Positions 12,808-61,675 of a stretch of 64,000 bases of DNA are shown in pieces (the stretch's first letter is position 1; the number at the start of each line of letters is the position of its first letter). This DNA is from a virus, in the IMG/VR virus record IMGVR_UViG_3300017917_003143, positions 252,095-316,094 of that record, one strand, 5' to 3'. Both the position numbers and the translations under genes were made by a program. The notes beneath the pieces were generated by a model that was not told the DNA's origin, did no database searches, and saw nothing but the letters and a program-made list of their open reading frames with translations.

Positions 12808-12814
12808 TATTTAT
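12808..12814 (-). promoter_or_regulatory. Late promoter core ATAAATA for gp6
   Basis: Minus strand reads ACCATAAATACTT, matching the T4 late -10 element TATAAATA. It sits between the gp25 stop and the gp6 ATG, leaving a leader of about 10-12 bases that includes the GGAAGG ribosome site. Confidence 0.65.
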
Positions 12815-12835: not shown

Positions 12836-13210
12836 TTATACGTAGGAAGCAGTGCGTGTCTGCTGATCGAAAAACACACTCAATCGTTCGGCATTGGTGC
12901 CTTGTACTGTTTGTATTTCCAGTTCAACCAAGATGCCGTTAATCTGTGGATATGCTGTGGCATCTGACAGATAGATCCTAGGGTCTTGCCCAACAATGCG
13001 TTGCATTTCTTGTATGATGAGCTCTGCTGTTTGTTCTGTCTGTGGTTCAAAAATCAAGTTCCACATAGTGGTGCCCACATCTGGACGACCCACTTTTTCA
13101 CCTTGACGTATATTGAAGTAATTCAAAAGGTCACGCTTGATCAATGCAAAGTCTGTGAGCACAAACTTTTTATATTGGTTAATAGTATTGAATCCAATGA
13201 ATGTAGGCAT
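12836..13210 (-). CDS. gp25: Baseplate wedge protein gp25
   Basis: A 124-residue protein of the GPW/gp25 family, which shares a fold with T4 gp25 and the TssE protein of type VI secretion and helps initiate sheath polymerisation at the baseplate. The family core is visible: ALIKRDLLNYFNIRQGEKVG, then RPDVGTTMWNLIFEP, with the FEP triplet in the position of the conserved EPR-like motif. Length agrees with T4 gp25 (132). The gene lies between the gp5-like spike and gp6, the same order as in T4. There is no Shine-Dalgarno sequence: the late promoter core TAAATA ends only seven bases before the ATG, so a leaderless or near-leaderless message is predicted. Confidence 0.9.
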   Translation of the reverse strand: MPTFIGFNTINQYKKFVLTDFALIKRDLLNYFNIRQGEKVGRPDVGTTMWNLIFEPQTEQTAELIIQEMQRIVGQDPRIYLSDATAYPQINGILVELEIQTVQGTNAERLSVFFDQQTRTASYV

Positions 13211-13217
13211 AGTATAC

Positions 13218-13224
13218 TATTTAA
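13218..13224 (-). promoter_or_regulatory. Late promoter core TTAAATA abutting gp25
   Basis: Minus strand reads CTTAAATAGTATACTATG. The core overlaps the stop codon of the upstream 780-residue gene and ends seven bases before the gp25 ATG, predicting a 5' leader of about two bases at most. Confidence 0.6.
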
Positions 13225-20791: not shown

Positions 20792-20819
20792 TTGACGATA
20801 GGGCAGAGTGTTGTATAAT
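20792..20819 (+). promoter_or_regulatory. Sigma70-type promoter for gp55
   Basis: TTGACG (20792-20797), 16-base spacer, TATAAT (20814-20819). A near-consensus host promoter. It lies back to back with the minus-strand late promoter at 20748-20754 and drives the gene for the late sigma factor itself. Confidence 0.8.
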
Positions 20820-20846
20820 AACTACACTATAGGAGAAGTTAAACTC

Positions 20847-21743
20847 ATGGCTACAACAGCTACGCCCACCCCAAAAAAGGTCAATTATCTCAACAACAGA
20901 GATATCCTCAAGGAAATACACCTAAGCAAAAACACATACTGTTCTTATCGTGATCCTGTGTTAGATCATCAATACGATATCATCCTGCCATCACTAGAAA
21001 AGATCAACCAGCGCACTATCGCCGAAGCACGGCGCAATCGTGCAGATCGTATCAAACGCGAAACTGGCGAAGTAGTTAACGATAAAAAGATCCCACACAC
21101 AGATTTGGTGTTCCGCATCACTACCTGGGAACACATACCTATGGCACCCAAGAAACAAACCAAAGCACAGCAGAAAAAAAGCAAGATGGAAGAGCTATTG
21201 GAGATTGATGACACAGCAGAATCTGATGGTTTAGAAGACCTAGTCGACGTACCTGTGTTAGACATGAATCATGTAAGATTAAACTTTCCACCCTTTTTCC
21301 ACTATCGTTTAGACGAAAATAAAGAGCCGTTTTTGGTAGGAAAGTCGCATTGGAAGGGTACCTTAGATGGGGGCGAGTTCTGCAGAGATCACGGCAAAAT
21401 GACCAATAAATTGGCCACCATGTTTATCAAACTCTGCGAAAGATATGCCACACGGAGCAACTGGCGCGGATACACTTACAACGAAGAAATGCGTGGACAA
21501 GCCTTGCTACAGCTATCTCAAATAGGATTGCAGTTCGACGAATCCAAGTCGCAAAACCCGTTTGCTTACTATACAGCGGCCATTACAAACTCGTTTACTA
21601 GGGTGTTAAACATTGAGAAGAAAATGCAAAACATTCGTGACGACATACTCGAAATGAACGGACTCAACCCATCATGGACACGTCAATTTTCAGAAAGCCA
21701 TAACAAGACTGCCGAAGCGGTTGCAAACAGCTCTGAAGAATAG
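20847..21743 (+). CDS. gp55: Late-transcription sigma factor gp55
   Basis: A 298-residue protein. The start at 20847 is chosen because AGGAG lies at 20831-20835; the frame is open farther upstream to a GTG at 20808, but that start lies inside the promoter. N-terminal VNYLNNRDILKEI matches the T4 gp55 N-terminus (YNYVNNKELLQAI). Residues from about 193 onward (MTNKLATMFIKLCERYATRS, then YTYNEEMRGQALLQLSQIG and FDESKSQNPFAYYTAAITNS) match the sigma region-2-like core of gp55, including the F..SK..NPFAY..-type motif. gp55 directs host core polymerase to the TATAAATA late element. T4 gp55 has 185 residues; the extra length lies between the two conserved parts (about 25-190) and includes a Lys-rich stretch followed by an acidic one. 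Many TAAATA cores in this window fit its presence. Confidence 0.92.
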   Translation: MATTATPTPKKVNYLNNRDILKEIHLSKNTYCSYRDPVLDHQYDIILPSLEKINQRTIAEARRNRADRIKRETGEVVNDKKIPHTDLVFRITTWEHIPMAPKKQTKAQQKKSKMEELLEIDDTAESDGLEDLVDVPVLDMNHVRLNFPPFFHYRLDENKEPFLVGKSHWKGTLDGGEFCRDHGKMTNKLATMFIKLCERYATRSNWRGYTYNEEMRGQALLQLSQIGLQFDESKSQNPFAYYTAAITNSFTRVLNIEKKMQNIRDDILEMNGLNPSWTRQFSESHNKTAEAVANSSEE

Positions 21744-24564: not shown

Positions 24565-24999
24565 ATGTCATGGCTTTTCGAATCTCAAGAAATTACGGAA
24601 CTACCCGAAGATTGCGTTGGTTTTGTTTATTTGATCACTAATAAACTGACCGGCAGGAAATATATTGGCAAAAAACTTGCAAAATTTAAGCGAACAACAT
24701 ACAAAGTAGTCAAACTCAAAAACGGCAACAAGAAACGCAAAAAAATTCGTGGCAAAATAGATTCAGATTGGCAAACATATTATGGCAGTTCTCCGGAGTT
24801 ATCTCGAGATGTTGAACTGTTAGGCTCACAAAACTTCTCACGCGAAATCTTATACTACTGTAGGTCCAAGGCTGAATGTAGCTATATCGAAGCTCGCGAA
24901 CAATTTTCCCGACGTGTATTAGAATCAGATGATTACTACAACGGGCACATACAAGTGCGTGTACATGGTAGTCATATCAAAGGCAAGATCGCTCAGTAA
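24565..24999 (+). CDS. GIY-YIG family nuclease
   Basis: A 144-residue protein. The GIY-YIG core is visible: FVYLITN (20-26) in place of GIY, then RKYIGKKL (31-38). Further family positions are RE in FSREILYYC (91-99), glutamate in YIEAREQF (107-114; probable metal-binding Glu) and YYN (124-126). A basic insert (NGNKKRKKIRGK, 53-64) follows YIG. The pattern DWQTYYGSS then F.REIL is frequent in GIY-YIG proteins of T4-like phages. It could be a free-standing homing endonuclease or a DNA-processing or host-DNA-degrading nuclease; the sequence does not decide. A TATGAT hexamer at 24547-24552 may be a weak -10 but lacks a clear -35. It follows gp46 by 30 bases and is followed by a gene-poor, hairpin-rich stretch. 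Confidence 0.8.
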   Translation: MSWLFESQEITELPEDCVGFVYLITNKLTGRKYIGKKLAKFKRTTYKVVKLKNGNKKRKKIRGKIDSDWQTYYGSSPELSRDVELLGSQNFSREILYYCRSKAECSYIEAREQFSRRVLESDDYYNGHIQVRVHGSHIKGKIAQ

Positions 25000-25446
25000 A
25001 GACTCGCACAGGTCAATATCGTGTGCCGAACAGTAGAAACCTGGACCCAAGGTCGCAGGGATCCGAAGCCTCGTCGCTGAAACGAGCACTCAATCAGTAT
25101 CCTTGACAGGACCACGATCGCAAATGCCTGCGGTTTGATTGTTTGAATAGAATATAAAGGGAAAAAGACGTAGCAGTGATGCTACACGTCAACATAATAT
25201 GTTAGCGTATGTTATGTTGGCCGCCGTTGTGATAAAGACACAGCTCGAGGTACCGGACAACCGCCTCTGTAATGCTGTAACGCTAAGTGACTGTTCGTAC
25301 TCGGATGATGACACCTCTTTGCCCTGTGCGGGCAAAGTGTGACCATAGTATCTGGATGATAACTGTTTCGCTTCGCTCATCTCTTAATAATACATTCATG
25401 AGCGACAGCGAAATGAATAGAACTTCGTAGAAGTTCTCAAAGTGTG
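25000..25446. other. Gene-poor interval with several strong hairpins
   Basis: No convincing gene. Several inverted repeats are visible: CTCGT..ACGAG near 25070-25090; GACG-TAGCA-GTGA-TGCTA-CA-CGTC at 25167-25190, with a GNRA-type GTGA loop; an 11-pair stem (two G-U) at 25191-25218 with loop TTAGCG; GAGG..CCTC around 25243-25266; TTTGCCC-TGTGC-GGGCAAA at 25318-25336; a long-arm repeat TTCGCTTCGCTCAT (25367-25380) with ATGAGCGACAGCGAA (25398-25412); and GAACTTC-GTA-GAAGTTC near 25421-25437. It lies between convergent transcripts, so some stems may be terminators; the density suggests a structured RNA or a regulatory region. A minus-strand 63-codon frame (25189-25380) starts inside one repeat and is not supported as a gene. 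Confidence 0.5.
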
Positions 25447-30240: not shown

Positions 30241-30246
30241 TAAATA
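30241..30246 (+). promoter_or_regulatory. Late promoter core TAAATA abutting the portal gene
   Basis: Reads GCGGTAAATAATACACTATG. The core ends seven bases before the ATG at 30254 and no ribosome site is present. Confidence 0.6.
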
Positions 30247-30253
30247 ATACACT

Positions 30254-32035
30254 ATGTCATGGAAAAAATATTTCAAAGTGGCCAACGTTTCGGGCCAGAT
30301 GAGCCCTATTTCGGGCAACATACCCCGAGGGCCAAACTACGGCACAGGATACGGAACAGACGGTCAAGCACAGACTGAATTCTCCTTCCGCAACTACGCC
30401 AGCCGACTGCCTGAAGTATATACAGGGCATCCCAATCGTTTGGAACGCTACAACCAATACGAAAACATGGACGGCGATTCAGAAATCAATGCCTGCCTTG
30501 ACATTTTGGCCGAATTCAGCACACAGACCTGTGAATCAAACGGTACACCATTTGAGATAGATTTCAAAGAAAAACCCACAGATCACGAAGTAGACATCAT
30601 CAAAAAACAGCTACAGCAGTGGGTCAAACTAAACAAATTAGATCAACGTGTGTTTAAAATTTTCCGCAACACCATCAAGTATGGTGATCAGGTATTTGTG
30701 CGTGATCCAGAGACATTTGAGATGTACTGGGTGGACATGACCAAAGTGGCCCGAGTGATCGTCAATGAGTCTGAAGGCAAACGTCCTGAGCAGTATGTTA
30801 TCCGTGACATCAATCCCAATTTCCAGAGTCTGAGCATCGCTGCCAAGACTACAAATGATTACAACACACAACCACCATCGGGCGGTTATTCAGCACCCTA
30901 CAATTACACAGCACCCAACGCACCTAACTCGTCGGGGCAGAGCCGTTTCCAGAAGTCTGTGAACGAAACCTGTATCGATGCCAAGCACGTGGTGCATCTC
31001 AGTCTGAGTGAAGGTCTTGATTACTACTGGCCATTTGGACAATCTATCCTGGAGATGATTTTCAAAGTTTTCAAACAGAAAGAACTGCTTGAAGATGCTA
31101 TCCTGATCTATCGTGTGCAACGTGCTCCAGAGCGCAGAGTATTCAAGATTGACGTGGGCAACATGCCTAGCCACTTGGCTATGCAGTTTGTTGAGCGTGT
31201 AAAAAACGAAATACATCAACGCCGTATTCCTAACCAAACAGGTGGTAGCGCCAATATCATGGATGCTACATATAACCCACTGTCGATCAACGAAGACTAC
31301 TTCTTTCCACAGACAGCTGACGGACGTGGATCATCAGTTGAAACCCTGCCCGGTGGTGAAAACTTAGGTCAGATTGATGACTTGAAATATTTCAACAACA
31401 AGATGTGCCGTGGTCTGCGTGTGCCCAGCAGTTACTTGCCCACAGGGCCAGATGATTCAGATCGTCCTATGAATGACGGTCGTGTTGGCACAGCACTCAT
31501 ACAAGAATACCGCTTTAATCAGTACTGTGAGCGTTTACAGCGCCAGATTTGCCAGAAACTGGATGATGAATTCAAGATGTTCCTGCGCTGGAGAGGCTTT
31601 AACATTGACGCTGGTTTGTTTAATATTGAGTTTGCACCGCCACAAAATTTTGCCAGTTATCGTCAAGCAGAACTGGATACCACACGTATGACAGCGTTCC
31701 AGGGCTTGGAACAGTTGCCGTATATGAGCAAGCGTTTCTTGATGAAACGTTATCTTGGACTCAGCGAAGAAGAGATCAACGACAACGAACAGCTTTGGAA
31801 AGAAGAACGCGATCAACCCGACTTACAAACACAAAGCGGCCAGGATTTGCGTTCAGTTGGTATTAGCCCTGCAGACATTGAAGCAGATATTGGCGCTGGC
31901 GAAGAAATTGCTGCCGCTGGTGGGTCACCCGAAGGTGGTATCATGCCACCAGGTGGTGCCGCTCCTGTAGAGCCTGGCAGTGCCGCAGCCGGTGCTGGTC
32001 CTGCAGGTGGTGCCGCTCCTGTTCCAACAATCTAA
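30254..32035 (+). CDS. gp20: Portal protein gp20
   Basis: A 593-residue protein that forms the dodecameric ring at the DNA-entry vertex and is the prohead initiator. Family features are clear: ASRLPEVYTGHPNRLERYNQ followed by YENMDGDSEINACLDILAEF near the N-terminus; the central VFKQKELLEDAILIYRVQRA, then APERRVFKIDVGNMP; and FNNKMCRGLRVPSSYLPTGP with RVGTALIQEY. These match T4 gp20 and the marker region used for aquatic T4-like phages. The C-terminal 60 residues are rich in Gly, Pro and Ala and likely disordered. T4 gp20 has 524 residues. The promoter leaves essentially no leader and no Shine-Dalgarno sequence. Confidence 0.95.
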   Translation: MSWKKYFKVANVSGQMSPISGNIPRGPNYGTGYGTDGQAQTEFSFRNYASRLPEVYTGHPNRLERYNQYENMDGDSEINACLDILAEFSTQTCESNGTPFEIDFKEKPTDHEVDIIKKQLQQWVKLNKLDQRVFKIFRNTIKYGDQVFVRDPETFEMYWVDMTKVARVIVNESEGKRPEQYVIRDINPNFQSLSIAAKTTNDYNTQPPSGGYSAPYNYTAPNAPNSSGQSRFQKSVNETCIDAKHVVHLSLSEGLDYYWPFGQSILEMIFKVFKQKELLEDAILIYRVQRAPERRVFKIDVGNMPSHLAMQFVERVKNEIHQRRIPNQTGGSANIMDATYNPLSINEDYFFPQTADGRGSSVETLPGGENLGQIDDLKYFNNKMCRGLRVPSSYLPTGPDDSDRPMNDGRVGTALIQEYRFNQYCERLQRQICQKLDDEFKMFLRWRGFNIDAGLFNIEFAPPQNFASYRQAELDTTRMTAFQGLEQLPYMSKRFLMKRYLGLSEEEINDNEQLWKEERDQPDLQTQSGQDLRSVGISPADIEADIGAGEEIAAAGGSPEGGIMPPGGAAPVEPGSAAAGAGPAGGAAPVPTI

Positions 32036-32041
32036 TAAATA
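32036..32041 (+). promoter_or_regulatory. Late promoter core TAAATA abutting gene 32047
   Basis: Reads TAATAAATAATATTATG: the core ends exactly five bases before the ATG at 32047. With T4 late spacing the first transcribed base would be the A of the ATG. Confidence 0.6.
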
Positions 32042-32046
32042 ATATT

Positions 32047-32265
32047 ATGTTGCTACTTGAGTTTTTCCATAAAGATCCTGCAGGTTATCAAGACGTTGAA
32101 GATGATAACTCACAGCCTCAGCTTGGCCAACTGCGCAAGACAAAACTCACACTACGCCAGATCAACAAACTGCGTAGAATGAATGATGTGCGTACCTTTG
32201 AGTACAAAGAAAAACTCAAAGATGTGCGCAAGCAATATCAACCACCTGCCGCACCAGCACTGTAA
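32047..32265 (+). CDS. Small basic protein of the head gene cluster
   Basis: A 72-residue protein between portal and core genes. The core KTKLTLRQINKLRRMNDVRT followed by FEYKEKLKDVRKQYQ is a helical, highly charged pattern, similar to a small gene I recall at this position in marine T4-like phages. Short size and location suggest a prohead core or head-completion component (the place of T4 gp67/gp68), but this is positional inference. It ends in a Pro/Ala tail. No Shine-Dalgarno sequence precedes it; the late promoter abuts the ATG. Confidence 0.7.
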   Translation: MLLLEFFHKDPAGYQDVEDDNSQPQLGQLRKTKLTLRQINKLRRMNDVRTFEYKEKLKDVRKQYQPPAAPAL

Positions 32266-32342: not shown

Positions 32343-32348
32343 TAAATA
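32343..32348 (+). promoter_or_regulatory. Late promoter core TAAATA for the head operon
   Basis: Reads TCGTAAATATCACAC, followed by GGAGG at 32369-32373 and ATG at 32379. It probably drives the acidic core protein, protease, scaffold and capsid genes together, ending at the terminator at 36211-36233. Confidence 0.65.
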
Positions 32349-32378
32349 TCACACAGAGCCATAACTTGGAGGAACCTC

Positions 32379-36185: not shown

Positions 36186-36210
36186 TCCGACACTGGATCA
36201 AGAAAACTCA

Positions 36211-36233
36211 AAAACCCGCTTCGGCGGGTTTTT
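36211..36233 (+). terminator. Intrinsic terminator after gp23
   Basis: AAAACCCGC pairs with GCGGGTTTT around a TTCG tetraloop, running into a T-run. It closes the head operon. Confidence 0.9.
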
Positions 36234-36238
36234 GTTTG

Positions 36239-36250
36239 GCCGCTAAATAT
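36239..36250 (+). promoter_or_regulatory. Late promoter (extended 12-mer) abutting gene 36255
   Basis: GCCGCTAAATAT, identical to the promoters at 45425 and 61723. The TAAATA core ends at 36249, five bases before the ATG at 36255; no ribosome site. Confidence 0.65.
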
Positions 36251-36254
36251 TATC

Positions 36255-36395
36255 ATGATTGCACGTATTAACTTTGGATTAGGAATGCCGGCGGCTCGTC
36301 CACAAGCACCCATAGGCAATCCTATCGGGCATACAGTTCCACAAACACTGCCTCGCCCAGCAGTACATAACTTGATAGTAAAAACAAATGGCTAA
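36255..36395 (+). CDS. Small unknown protein, 46 residues
   Basis: The frame starts at the ATG five bases after the late promoter core and encodes MIARINFGLGMPAARPQAPI followed by GNPIGHTVPQTLPRPAVHNL and a short tail. It is rich in Pro, Ala and Ile, without a recognisable motif. Its stop overlaps the next gene's ATG (ATGGCTAA at 36388), which argues that it is translated and that the next gene depends on it by coupling. It could be a short leader peptide or a small virion component. It has no Shine-Dalgarno sequence, so it would be read from a leaderless message. Confidence 0.5.
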   Translation: MIARINFGLGMPAARPQAPIGNPIGHTVPQTLPRPAVHNLIVKTNG

Positions 36396-37826: not shown

Positions 37827-37906
37827 TCAACGTAATAATGCGTTTTATGCGGATACCACCGCGTAGTGGCTAGAACCCACATCGGACTTCTATAAGGAGA
37901 AAACAA

Positions 37907-38755
37907 ATGGGACGTTCTCTCAAAATCCAAAAATACGGTGCCGCTCAAGGTATCACATATCCAAACAACACTTCTGCTAACACACCAGCAGCCGCTGTGC
38001 CAGTTGATCAAGGTTATCCTCAGTTCAGTCAGTTGACTGATCCTGTGTATTATTCTTCGCTGACAGCATCTAACTTCTATGGTGTCGTTGGTGGTAATAG
38101 AACAACTGCAACAACTACAACATTCCCTGTTGTTAAATGCGCGGTCAACATTGCTCTTCCAGATGGTTCAGGCCAAGGGGTTGAAGACGGCGTTATTTTA
38201 CGCCAAAAAGGTGCTCACAAATATCTTGTCATGAGCAGTGGTCAAGACGTACAAGACGAAGACATGGTTGTTGGAGCTTCTTACTACATCAAAACTTTGG
38301 ATACAACTAACTGGCAACAAATGGGTGCTCCAGTGGGCGCACAAGTTGGCACAATCTTTACCTGCACAGCACTGTGCGCCAATCCACAAAACGGTGTTGG
38401 TTATTTGGTAGGCCAATGTGTTCTAACCAGTGACTTGACTCCAGGACCTGGCTTGATGGCTATCAGCTATGCAGTTGGTGGTGACTCAACCGAAGTCGCT
38501 GTTTCCAAGTTGACCAACAAGTTCTTACAAAACTGGGATAACTTCCAGAATGCTGCCGGTACTTCATTAGACAGCTATGCTGGCACAGGTAACAACGTAG
38601 GTGAAGTCAATTACTCAGGTGAGACCACTTATCTGGCCAACTTCTTCACTGACGATGCAGGCGCACAAGCAACCAAGTCTGGTGCTGATGCCGCAACATT
38701 CAGCAACGGTACAGGCGATATTGAATTGGCACAAGTCGAGAAGTTTACTTCTTAA
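37907..38755 (+). CDS. Virion structural protein, probable head or tail decoration
   Basis: A 282-residue protein starting MGRSLKIQKYGAAQGITYPN. Proteins beginning MGRxLxIxKxG and containing a segment of the form VILRQKGAHKYLVMS then a later CVLTSD..PGPGLMAI are, to my recollection, common virion proteins in marine T4-like phages. The sequence is rich in Gly, Thr, Ser and Val with beta periodicity, without membrane segments. Strong ribosome site AAGGAG, own late promoter and own terminator indicate an abundant single-gene transcript, consistent with a major structural component such as a capsid or tail decoration. Confidence 0.65.
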   Translation: MGRSLKIQKYGAAQGITYPNNTSANTPAAAVPVDQGYPQFSQLTDPVYYSSLTASNFYGVVGGNRTTATTTTFPVVKCAVNIALPDGSGQGVEDGVILRQKGAHKYLVMSSGQDVQDEDMVVGASYYIKTLDTTNWQQMGAPVGAQVGTIFTCTALCANPQNGVGYLVGQCVLTSDLTPGPGLMAISYAVGGDSTEVAVSKLTNKFLQNWDNFQNAAGTSLDSYAGTGNNVGEVNYSGETTYLANFFTDDAGAQATKSGADAATFSNGTGDIELAQVEKFTS

Positions 38756-60712: not shown

Positions 60713-61368
60713 TCATTGGAGTTTGTGGATTCATTGGATCTGGTAAAGATACCATCGCTGATTACCTTGTGAATATACACGAATTTCGTAGAGAAAGTTT
60801 TGCAGGCACCCTCAAAGATGCTTGCGCGGCTGTGTTTGGCTGGGATCGTACCATGCTGGAAGGGCGTACCAAGCAAAGCCGAGAGTGGCGTGATCAGATC
60901 GACGAGTGGTGGAGCAAGCGTTTGGGCCTAGCAGTGACGCCTCGTTGGATACTACAGCAGTGGGGCACAGAAGTGTGCCGCAGAGGCTTCCATGATGACA
61001 TTTGGATTGCCAGCTTGGAAAACAAACTACGGACATCAAAAGACAGCGTAGTGATCAGCGACTGTAGATTCCCTAATGAGATCAAAGCCATTAGAAATCA
61101 AGGGGGCATTGTAATACGAGTGGTGCGAGGACCTGAGCCTGCGTGGTATGATGATGCTGTGTCTATGAATGCTGGACCCACAAACATGCGTTGGTCAATA
61201 GCTAAGATGCATATGGAAAAGCTCAATATCCATGCCAGCGAAACTGCTTGGGTGGGCACTGAGTTTGATGCGGTAATTGACAACAATGGAACTATGGATC
61301 AGCTATATCAGCAGATCAACGATCTTCTTCAAGATCTCCGCGCTTCCAAGGCAAGTCCGCTCGAGTGA
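60709..61368 (+). CDS. gp1: Deoxynucleoside monophosphate kinase gp1
   Basis: A 219-residue P-loop kinase. Walker A GFIGSGKDT at 7-15; the Lys13 loop binds ATP. The central QWGTEVCRRGFHDDIWIASL and SVVISDCRFPNEIKAIRNQG match the T4 gp1 family, including the D-C/V-R-F-P-N-E motif that contacts the nucleotide. It phosphorylates dTMP, dGMP and hm-dCMP-type nucleotides to diphosphates for phage DNA synthesis. Length is close to T4 gp1 (241). Ribosome site AAAGGA lies at about 60695-60700. It overlaps dexA by four bases, so both enter one early transcript, and its 3' end is overlapped by the HNH gene on the other strand. Confidence 0.9.
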   Translation: MIIGVCGFIGSGKDTIADYLVNIHEFRRESFAGTLKDACAAVFGWDRTMLEGRTKQSREWRDQIDEWWSKRLGLAVTPRWILQQWGTEVCRRGFHDDIWIASLENKLRTSKDSVVISDCRFPNEIKAIRNQGGIVIRVVRGPEPAWYDDAVSMNAGPTNMRWSIAKMHMEKLNIHASETAWVGTEFDAVIDNNGTMDQLYQQINDLLQDLRASKASPLE

Positions 61369-61663
61369 TTTCGATACTGCAATTTAAACAAATACTCTTG
61401 AGATTGCGTAGTTCTGAATTGTTAAGATTGCCATCGACATGATACACTAAAATTTGTGCGGTGCTTTTAGCTCTAAACCCACATCGATCACAAGTCATTT
61501 TCTTTTTATAACCAGCACTCTGCCAACGCGGTGTCGCTGGTTTTTGTTTGCGGCCTTTGCGTATGCAGGCATCACACCTACTGCGATAGTAAATTTTATC
61601 ATCTCGATAGCAGTTGATTGCCGACGGATTGCGGTTACAGGCTTTGCATATGGGTCTTGACAT
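61316..61663 (-). CDS. HNH-type zinc-binding endonuclease-like protein
   Basis: A 115-residue protein. N-terminal CKACNRNPSA and CDACIRKGRKQK provide four cysteines (zinc-binding), followed by a second unit CDRCGFRAKSTAQILVYHVD, GNLNNSELRNLKSICLNC. The H-x-D-G-N...N-x-x-L-x-x-x-C-x-x-C layout corresponds to HNH endonucleases with paired zinc sites. It lies alone on the minus strand, its 3' end overlapping the dNMP kinase gene by 53 bases, and it is immediately followed upstream by the divergent tail-sheath gene. Possible homing endonuclease or packaging-related nuclease. It has no Shine-Dalgarno sequence and directly follows a late promoter. Confidence 0.8.
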   Translation of the reverse strand: MSRPICKACNRNPSAINCYRDDKIYYRSRCDACIRKGRKQKPATPRWQSAGYKKKMTCDRCGFRAKSTAQILVYHVDGNLNNSELRNLKSICLNCSIEITRADLPWKRGDLEEDR

Positions 61664-61668
61664 GCACT

Positions 61669-61675
61669 TATTTAA
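61669..61675 (-). promoter_or_regulatory. Late promoter core TTAAATA abutting the HNH gene
   Basis: Minus strand reads CTTAAATAAGTGCATG: five bases between TAAATA and the ATG at 61663, the spacing that puts the predicted +1 on the A of the start codon. Confidence 0.55.

Follow-up and report, generated by a model that had tools for sequence, protein, structure and literature searches.

In bacteriophage T4, late transcription starts downstream of the promoter core, and leaderless mRNAs are rare in the enterobacterial model hosts. The late promoters of T4 involve gp55, gp33 and gp45 (PMC2988020, PMC7892883), and the late box is located about one helical turn above the start (review, PMC2988020). 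The late motif ATAAATA has been described in Pectobacterium phage CBB and in GAP32 (PMC5259590). Leaderless genes are known in bacteria, among them the 'TA-led' genes (PMC3160421; review, PMC9031893), and huge phages with S1-like proteins and without Shine-Dalgarno (SD) sequences have been described in a work where leaderless starts are not mentioned (PMC7162821). No report of leaderless late genes in T4-like phages was found in the literature searched, most subscription journals being outside the search.

The present analysis was carried out on a window, i.e. the whole stretch of 64 kb of DNA that was analysed out of a virus record of 343,632 bp, and on its relatives. It leads us to propose, with a probability of about 0.84, that late promoters occur here in two forms and that the short form gives SD-less messages, starting with AUG or with ACY-AUG, whose translation would follow the leaderless route. 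In a large group of giant, uncultivated T4 relatives from freshwater and in the cultured SAR11 phage HTVC008M, many late messages probably start at the AUG or three bases before it.

Results

The late core in the window is NTAAATA; the full TATAAATA has 0 occurrences there and its TAAATA part is kept. The cores stand before late virion genes (portal, gp25, gp6, tail sheath and virion proteins), and a gp55-type late sigma factor encoded at 20808..21743 on the + strand (PHROG 12791, E 1.6e-77; PHROG 234, E 7.5e-23) is expected to be their reader. An earlier note on this DNA had claimed that the core ends 5 nt before the ATG at three genes and 7 nt before it at two others, and that all five are devoid of SD. 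Both claims were confirmed on the window sequence: the distance is exactly 5 nt at 32047 (+), 36255 (+) and 61663 (-) and 7 nt at gp25 (13210, -) and portal (30254, +), and no SD tetramer was detected at any of these five window starts.

The core at 32036..32041 (+) precedes a gene of 72 aa, predicted to be leaderless (32047..32265, +), which is directly downstream of the portal gene, in the position of T4 gene 67. Its product matches PHROG 13986, of unknown function (E 6e-8), and is conserved from residue 1 in 80/80 loci (the best 80 of at least 600 IMG/VR stretches). The gp20-type portal gene itself (30254..32035, +; PF07230, E 5e-105), with a predicted 3-nt leader, is separated from its core (30241..30246, +) by the 7-nt spacer ATACACT, giving ACT-ATG. 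The same ACT-ATG ends the spacer GTATACT between the core at 13218..13223 (-) and the gene of the baseplate wedge gp25 (12836..13210, -; PF04965, E 6e-7; PHROG 43 and 261). Downstream of the major capsid gene, a 46-aa ORF, also predicted to be leaderless (36255..36395, +), is preceded by a strong intrinsic-terminator-like hairpin with a T run (36210..36237, +; AAAAACCCGCTTCGGCGGGTTTTTGTTT), directly followed by six bases and the TAAATA box (36244..36249, +). In two of three close relatives the N5 spacing of this site (Nx being a spacer of x nt) is retained, and the third has TAAGTA-N5-ATG. The core at 61669..61674 (-) precedes an HNH-endonuclease-like gene (61316..61663, -; PHROG 2255, E 3e-5), again predicted to be leaderless; a similar gene start, MEKRPLCSVC, in the relative L132 has N5 too.

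Three of the leadered late genes with SD which the earlier note had opposed to these five could also be shown. Gene 32379 has its core 30 nt upstream and the SD ggagga (32343..32378, +; ttggaggaacctcATG), and its relatives, among those listed, have the core at 28-34 nt with SD. For gp6, the core (12808..12813, -) is 16 nt upstream with the SD ggaagg (cacggaaggtattATG), and the upstream sequence of the tail sheath gene, with SD, is ttaaaggaacagacacATG. Two structured RNAs were detected in the window. The Rfam freshwater-2 cis-regulatory RNA (RF02980) at 37828-37909 (+) lies between TAAATA 37817 and ATG 37907 and should therefore be the 5' leader of a late gene; the Polynucleobacter-1 RNA (RF01718, 92 bits) is found at 25001-25144 (+), just past the ORF 24565-24999.

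The window contains three TAAATA-N5-ATG sites for a shuffle mean of 0.8, and three or more were obtained in 11 of 200 dinucleotide shuffles, so that the window alone is only suggestive and not significant. On a larger scale the excess over chance was borne out: the whole record contains 18 sites versus 2 for the pattern read backwards, used as control, and a clade sample of 464 kb contains 29 versus a shuffle mean of 9.75 and a maximum of 16 (20 shuffles). A random expectation as high as the observed count, which the earlier note had named as speaking against its reading, was thus found neither in the record nor in the clade. At least 15 of the 18 record sites precede a plausible ORF of 46-471 aa, and the genes concerned include those of a peptide deformylase, a superoxide dismutase, an HNH nuclease, an RfaE-like nucleotidyltransferase, a virion protein and a small-terminase-like protein. 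The search of IMG/VR with the portal gave at least 600 stretches, of which the best 80 (71-93% identity) were used; the isolate portal nearest to this uncultivated group is 55% identical. In the records of 20 uncultivated relatives taken from the best 80, N5 was counted 142 times versus 42 for the backward control, N4 65 versus 25 and N6 52 versus 35.

The distance d, in nt from the end of TAAATA to the start codon, was determined for ORFs of at least 50 codons in the window and in 20 stretches of 20 kb (five relatives). At the ORF level, 9 ATG were found at d4, 26 at d5, 8 at d6, 5 at d7 and 1 at d8, only 4 in total at d9-15, and a plateau from d16. The spacing is therefore bimodal, with a sharp peak at 4-8 nt (mode 5), an almost empty interval at 9-15 nt and a plateau at 16 nt and above. 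Fourteen permuted motifs gave about 2-3 cases per distance, with a mean of 3.2 at d5 versus 26 for TAAATA. At the level of gene families, defined by a crude N-terminal clustering, the counts from d4 to d8 were 17, 48, 9, 11 and 2, with nine at d9-15. An SD tetramer within 20 nt is present in 3% of the families at d4-6, in 0% at d7-8 and at d9-15, and in 48-49% at d16-35. The start codon at d5 is ATG in 26 cases, GTG in 1 and TTG in 0, a strong AUG preference as for leaderless mRNAs of the E. coli type. With a transcription start 5-6 nt past the box, the leaders at spacings of 9-15 nt would measure about 4-10 nt, which is more than a leaderless message allows but leaves no room for an SD and its spacer; the valley at d9-15 therefore supports the start site independently of T4.

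The bases before the ATG differ between the classes. In the N5 families, the ATG is preceded by a pyrimidine in 96% of cases (T 69%, C 27%) versus 59% in leadered genes, which is initiator-like, as in a pyrimidine-purine initiator. The start site that we infer agrees with the spacing valley as well as with these bases. In the N7 families, the spacer has A at position 5 and C at position 6 in 11/11, which represent about five or six distinct genes, the portal being counted in several N-terminal variants, and ACY-ATG is found in nearly all. Because the spacer almost always ends in A-C-pyrimidine, the N7 message (portal, gp25) probably has a 3-nt leader, 5'-ACY-AUG, and would not be strictly leaderless. 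The leaderless prediction of the earlier note is thus supported for N5, whereas the start that it had placed within two bases of the ATG at portal and gp25 gives way to this probable 3-nt leader.

The check in relatives that the earlier note had proposed came out in favour of its reading, the short spacing being kept there. Over five ortholog sets (portal, gene 32047 after the portal, gp25, nucleotidyltransferase and small-terminase-like, with source viruses overlapping between sets), d4-8 was found in 205/228 distinct upstream regions and d9-15 in none. The short spacing accounts for 37/39 distinct upstream regions of gp25 (SD 0/37), 11/11 of the nucleotidyltransferase (SD 0/11), 50/54 of the small-terminase-like gene (SD 1/50), 64/64 of gene 32047 (d5 50, d4 10; SD 4/64) and 43/60 of the portal (d7 31, d5 11; SD 0/43), and twelve other portal orthologs are at d17-30, ten of them with SD. 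The TAAATA spacing is retained in the relatives while the spacer letters vary. On the portal tree, at least five changes between the short and the SD form are placed on well-supported branches, the deep placement being unsure because T4 and PA5oct form very long branches. As portal orthologs switch from one form to the other, both must be nearly interchangeable in the host. The short form is absent at the portal, the next gene and gp25 of seven isolates including T4, most of which have an SD. At the small-terminase-like gene, TAAATA is often found between short inverted repeats (GCGG-TAAATA-CCGC-ATG; L231-L310, near position 600) whose arms change together; this arrangement is not general in other genes and was rejected as a general feature.

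No N5 excess was detected in Phosso, PA5oct, Atu_ph07, CBB, 121Q, T4 and XaC1 taken together (55 versus 60 backward), most of these seven being AT-richer, and none was clear in S-PM2, Syn9, P-SSM2, KVP40, RaK2, Cr30 and phiM12. Short spacing as a general T4-like property was rejected on these two sets of seven isolates: T4 and the majority of T4-like isolates show no enrichment for the geometry, which is therefore a lineage trait of the uncultivated group. In a 45-kb late stretch of T4, 1 of 27 core-linked starts is at d5. Among eight further T4-like isolates, Pelagibacter phage HTVC008M is the only clearly enriched one (N5 14 versus 4). Its spacing histogram has a single peak, with 12 genes at d5 versus 1.4 for permuted motifs, and 12 of the 14 N5 sites coincide with annotated starts, those of gp25 (31132), the tape measure, the tail tube cap, gp2 (18916) and gp4 (18943) among them. 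The gp2 and gp4 starts are divergent TAAATA-N5-ATG starts with a shared intergenic region of 26 bp (NC_020484, 18914-18945). Since HTVC008M is outside the freshwater group, the trait either has several origins or is older; since this phage is cultured and has the same peak, the claim is testable.

The record carries 30 tRNA genes within an 18-kb stretch. A permuted tmRNA of the beta_tmRNA family, with the tag ANDEVYALAA, is located inside the tRNA array (G000:203269-203682; L319, L328), and similar ones were found in the relatives L119, L123, L130 and L135. A tmRNA of this type points to a betaproteobacterial host, and a betaproteobacterial freshwater host is likely; the host search among bacterial genomes matched only one bin contig. 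A gene for the ribosomal protein bS21 is present at G000:38906-39061 (L329) and in G001 and G008, and none was found in seven other relatives, several of which are fragments. Being present in 3/10 records, several of them fragments, it is therefore not tightly linked to the trait. Initiator-like tRNA-Met genes (C1 opposite A72) occur in the phage tRNA arrays of the record and its relatives (L123 5343-5417, L119 6573-6647, L130 7341-7416, L328 8410-8484). A special initiator tRNA as the cause was rejected: PA5oct also carries an initiator-like tRNA-Met without the short-spacing architecture, and this tRNA is therefore not specific. No phage IF3 was found in ten records. The leaderless trait is matched too loosely by bS21 and by the initiator tRNA for either to count as its cause.

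Discussion

The results as a whole support the earlier interpretation and can be combined as follows. In the uncultivated lineage, gp55-type late promoters with the core NTAAATA would exist in a short and a long form. The short form has 4-8 nt (mode 5) between the end of the core and the ATG, and RNA polymerase would start 5-6 nt past the core, a position carried over from T4 knowledge; the late mRNA would then begin with the A of the AUG (d4-6) or with 5'-ACY-AUG (d7-8), so that, judged from the promoter position only, the message would have at most a few nt before the AUG. These short transcripts are presumably those translated, and the SD-less messages would follow the leaderless route, with direct binding of the ribosome to the 5'-terminal AUG (PMC9031893). 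In the long form, the core is at least 16 nt upstream and about half of the leaders carry an SD.

The same sites could be the result of translational coupling, where ribosomes on an upstream late transcript end at a nearby stop and restart at the ATG, TAAATA being a stop plus spacer and no promoter. A same-strand stop within 30 nt is present at 30/60 short sites, in many relatives the portal gene appears to end on the TAA of the core, and the portal stop is overlapped by gene 67 in T4. However, a terminator or an opposite-strand gene is directly upstream at 21/60 short sites, where no upstream message is therefore expected, and coupling leaves unexplained the ATA kept after TAA, the exact 5-nt spacing, the pyrimidine before the ATG and the ACY in N7, so that we consider it unlikely. 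The transcripts could also come from other promoters further upstream and be translated by A/U-rich non-SD initiation, with TAAATA as a translation enhancer; the rarity of SDs in huge phages with S1-like proteins (PMC7162821) and the bS21 encoded in the record are compatible with this. But leadered genes of the same genomes with the same TAAATA core often use SDs, the sharp spacing is specific to TAAATA and not to permuted A/T hexamers, and an enhancer predicts neither the d9-15 valley nor the exact spacing, which makes this explanation very unlikely.

Chance has to be weighed too, TAAATA and ATG both being common in A/T-rich phage DNA: the three window sites are weak alone, being matched in 11/200 shuffles, and the seven isolates show no more N5 sites than backward controls (55 versus 60). 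It was nevertheless rejected by the record, clade and permuted-motif controls, the record and clade counts being far above controls and the spacing being kept while the spacer letters change, and its probability is negligible. It is equally hard to believe that the start codons were called too early, the true start being an internal ATG with SD and the TAAATA-proximal ATG lying in the leader. An internal in-frame start with SD within 30 codons is found in 3/62 d4-6 families, but this resembles the 9/130 of leadered genes, and similarity begins at the first residue in gp25 and in gene 32047.

If late promoters work in two forms as proposed, leaderless or near-leaderless messages would have to supply essential virion parts, e.g. 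portal and gp25. The promoter spacing gives a base-exact prediction, with two natural classes (AUG-first and ACY-AUG) and orthologs switching to SD leaders, and HTVC008M is a cultured phage where this prediction is measurable. Phage gene finders that depend on SDs may miss or shift such starts. A wider and rather doubtful extension is that a major T4-like lineage has shifted part of its late regulon to leaderless and 5'-ACY-AUG messages, so that essential virion genes would be translated without the help of the anti-SD. Late in infection, this route may be favoured by ribosomes altered through the phage bS21 or by the initiator tRNA, and HTVC008M would have arrived at or kept the same design.

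The promoters described here are like the late promoters of T4 in their TATA-type, -10-like core, here predicted to stand about one helical turn above the start, in the gp55-type sigma gene and in their place before late virion genes. In T4, however, most cores stand 23-35 nt upstream of the ATG and the leader carries an SD, whereas a large d4-8 class without SD is present here. The T4-like jumbo phages CBB and GAP32 also carry this core upstream of structural genes, and a gp55 homolog; unlike the freshwater group, CBB has 4 N5 versus 10 backward, and an ordinary start with SD is found there at the portal, the next gene and gp25. With the TA-led genes, the short form shares a -10 box some 12 nt upstream of the start codon, the lack of SD and an AUG at or very near the 5' end, which is predicted here. 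The TA-led box is of the host sigma-70 type TANNNT, whereas the box found here is a phage late box serving a phage regulon with a distinct ACY-AUG subclass. At the late genes of HTVC008M, including gp25, the TAAATA-N5-ATG peak is the same, but this is a smaller, marine and distantly related T4-like phage in which only one clear N7-N8 start resembles the freshwater class. As in the huge phages of PMC7162821, large phages depart here from SD-led initiation; unlike in those phages, a single genome here combines SD-led with predicted leaderless genes.
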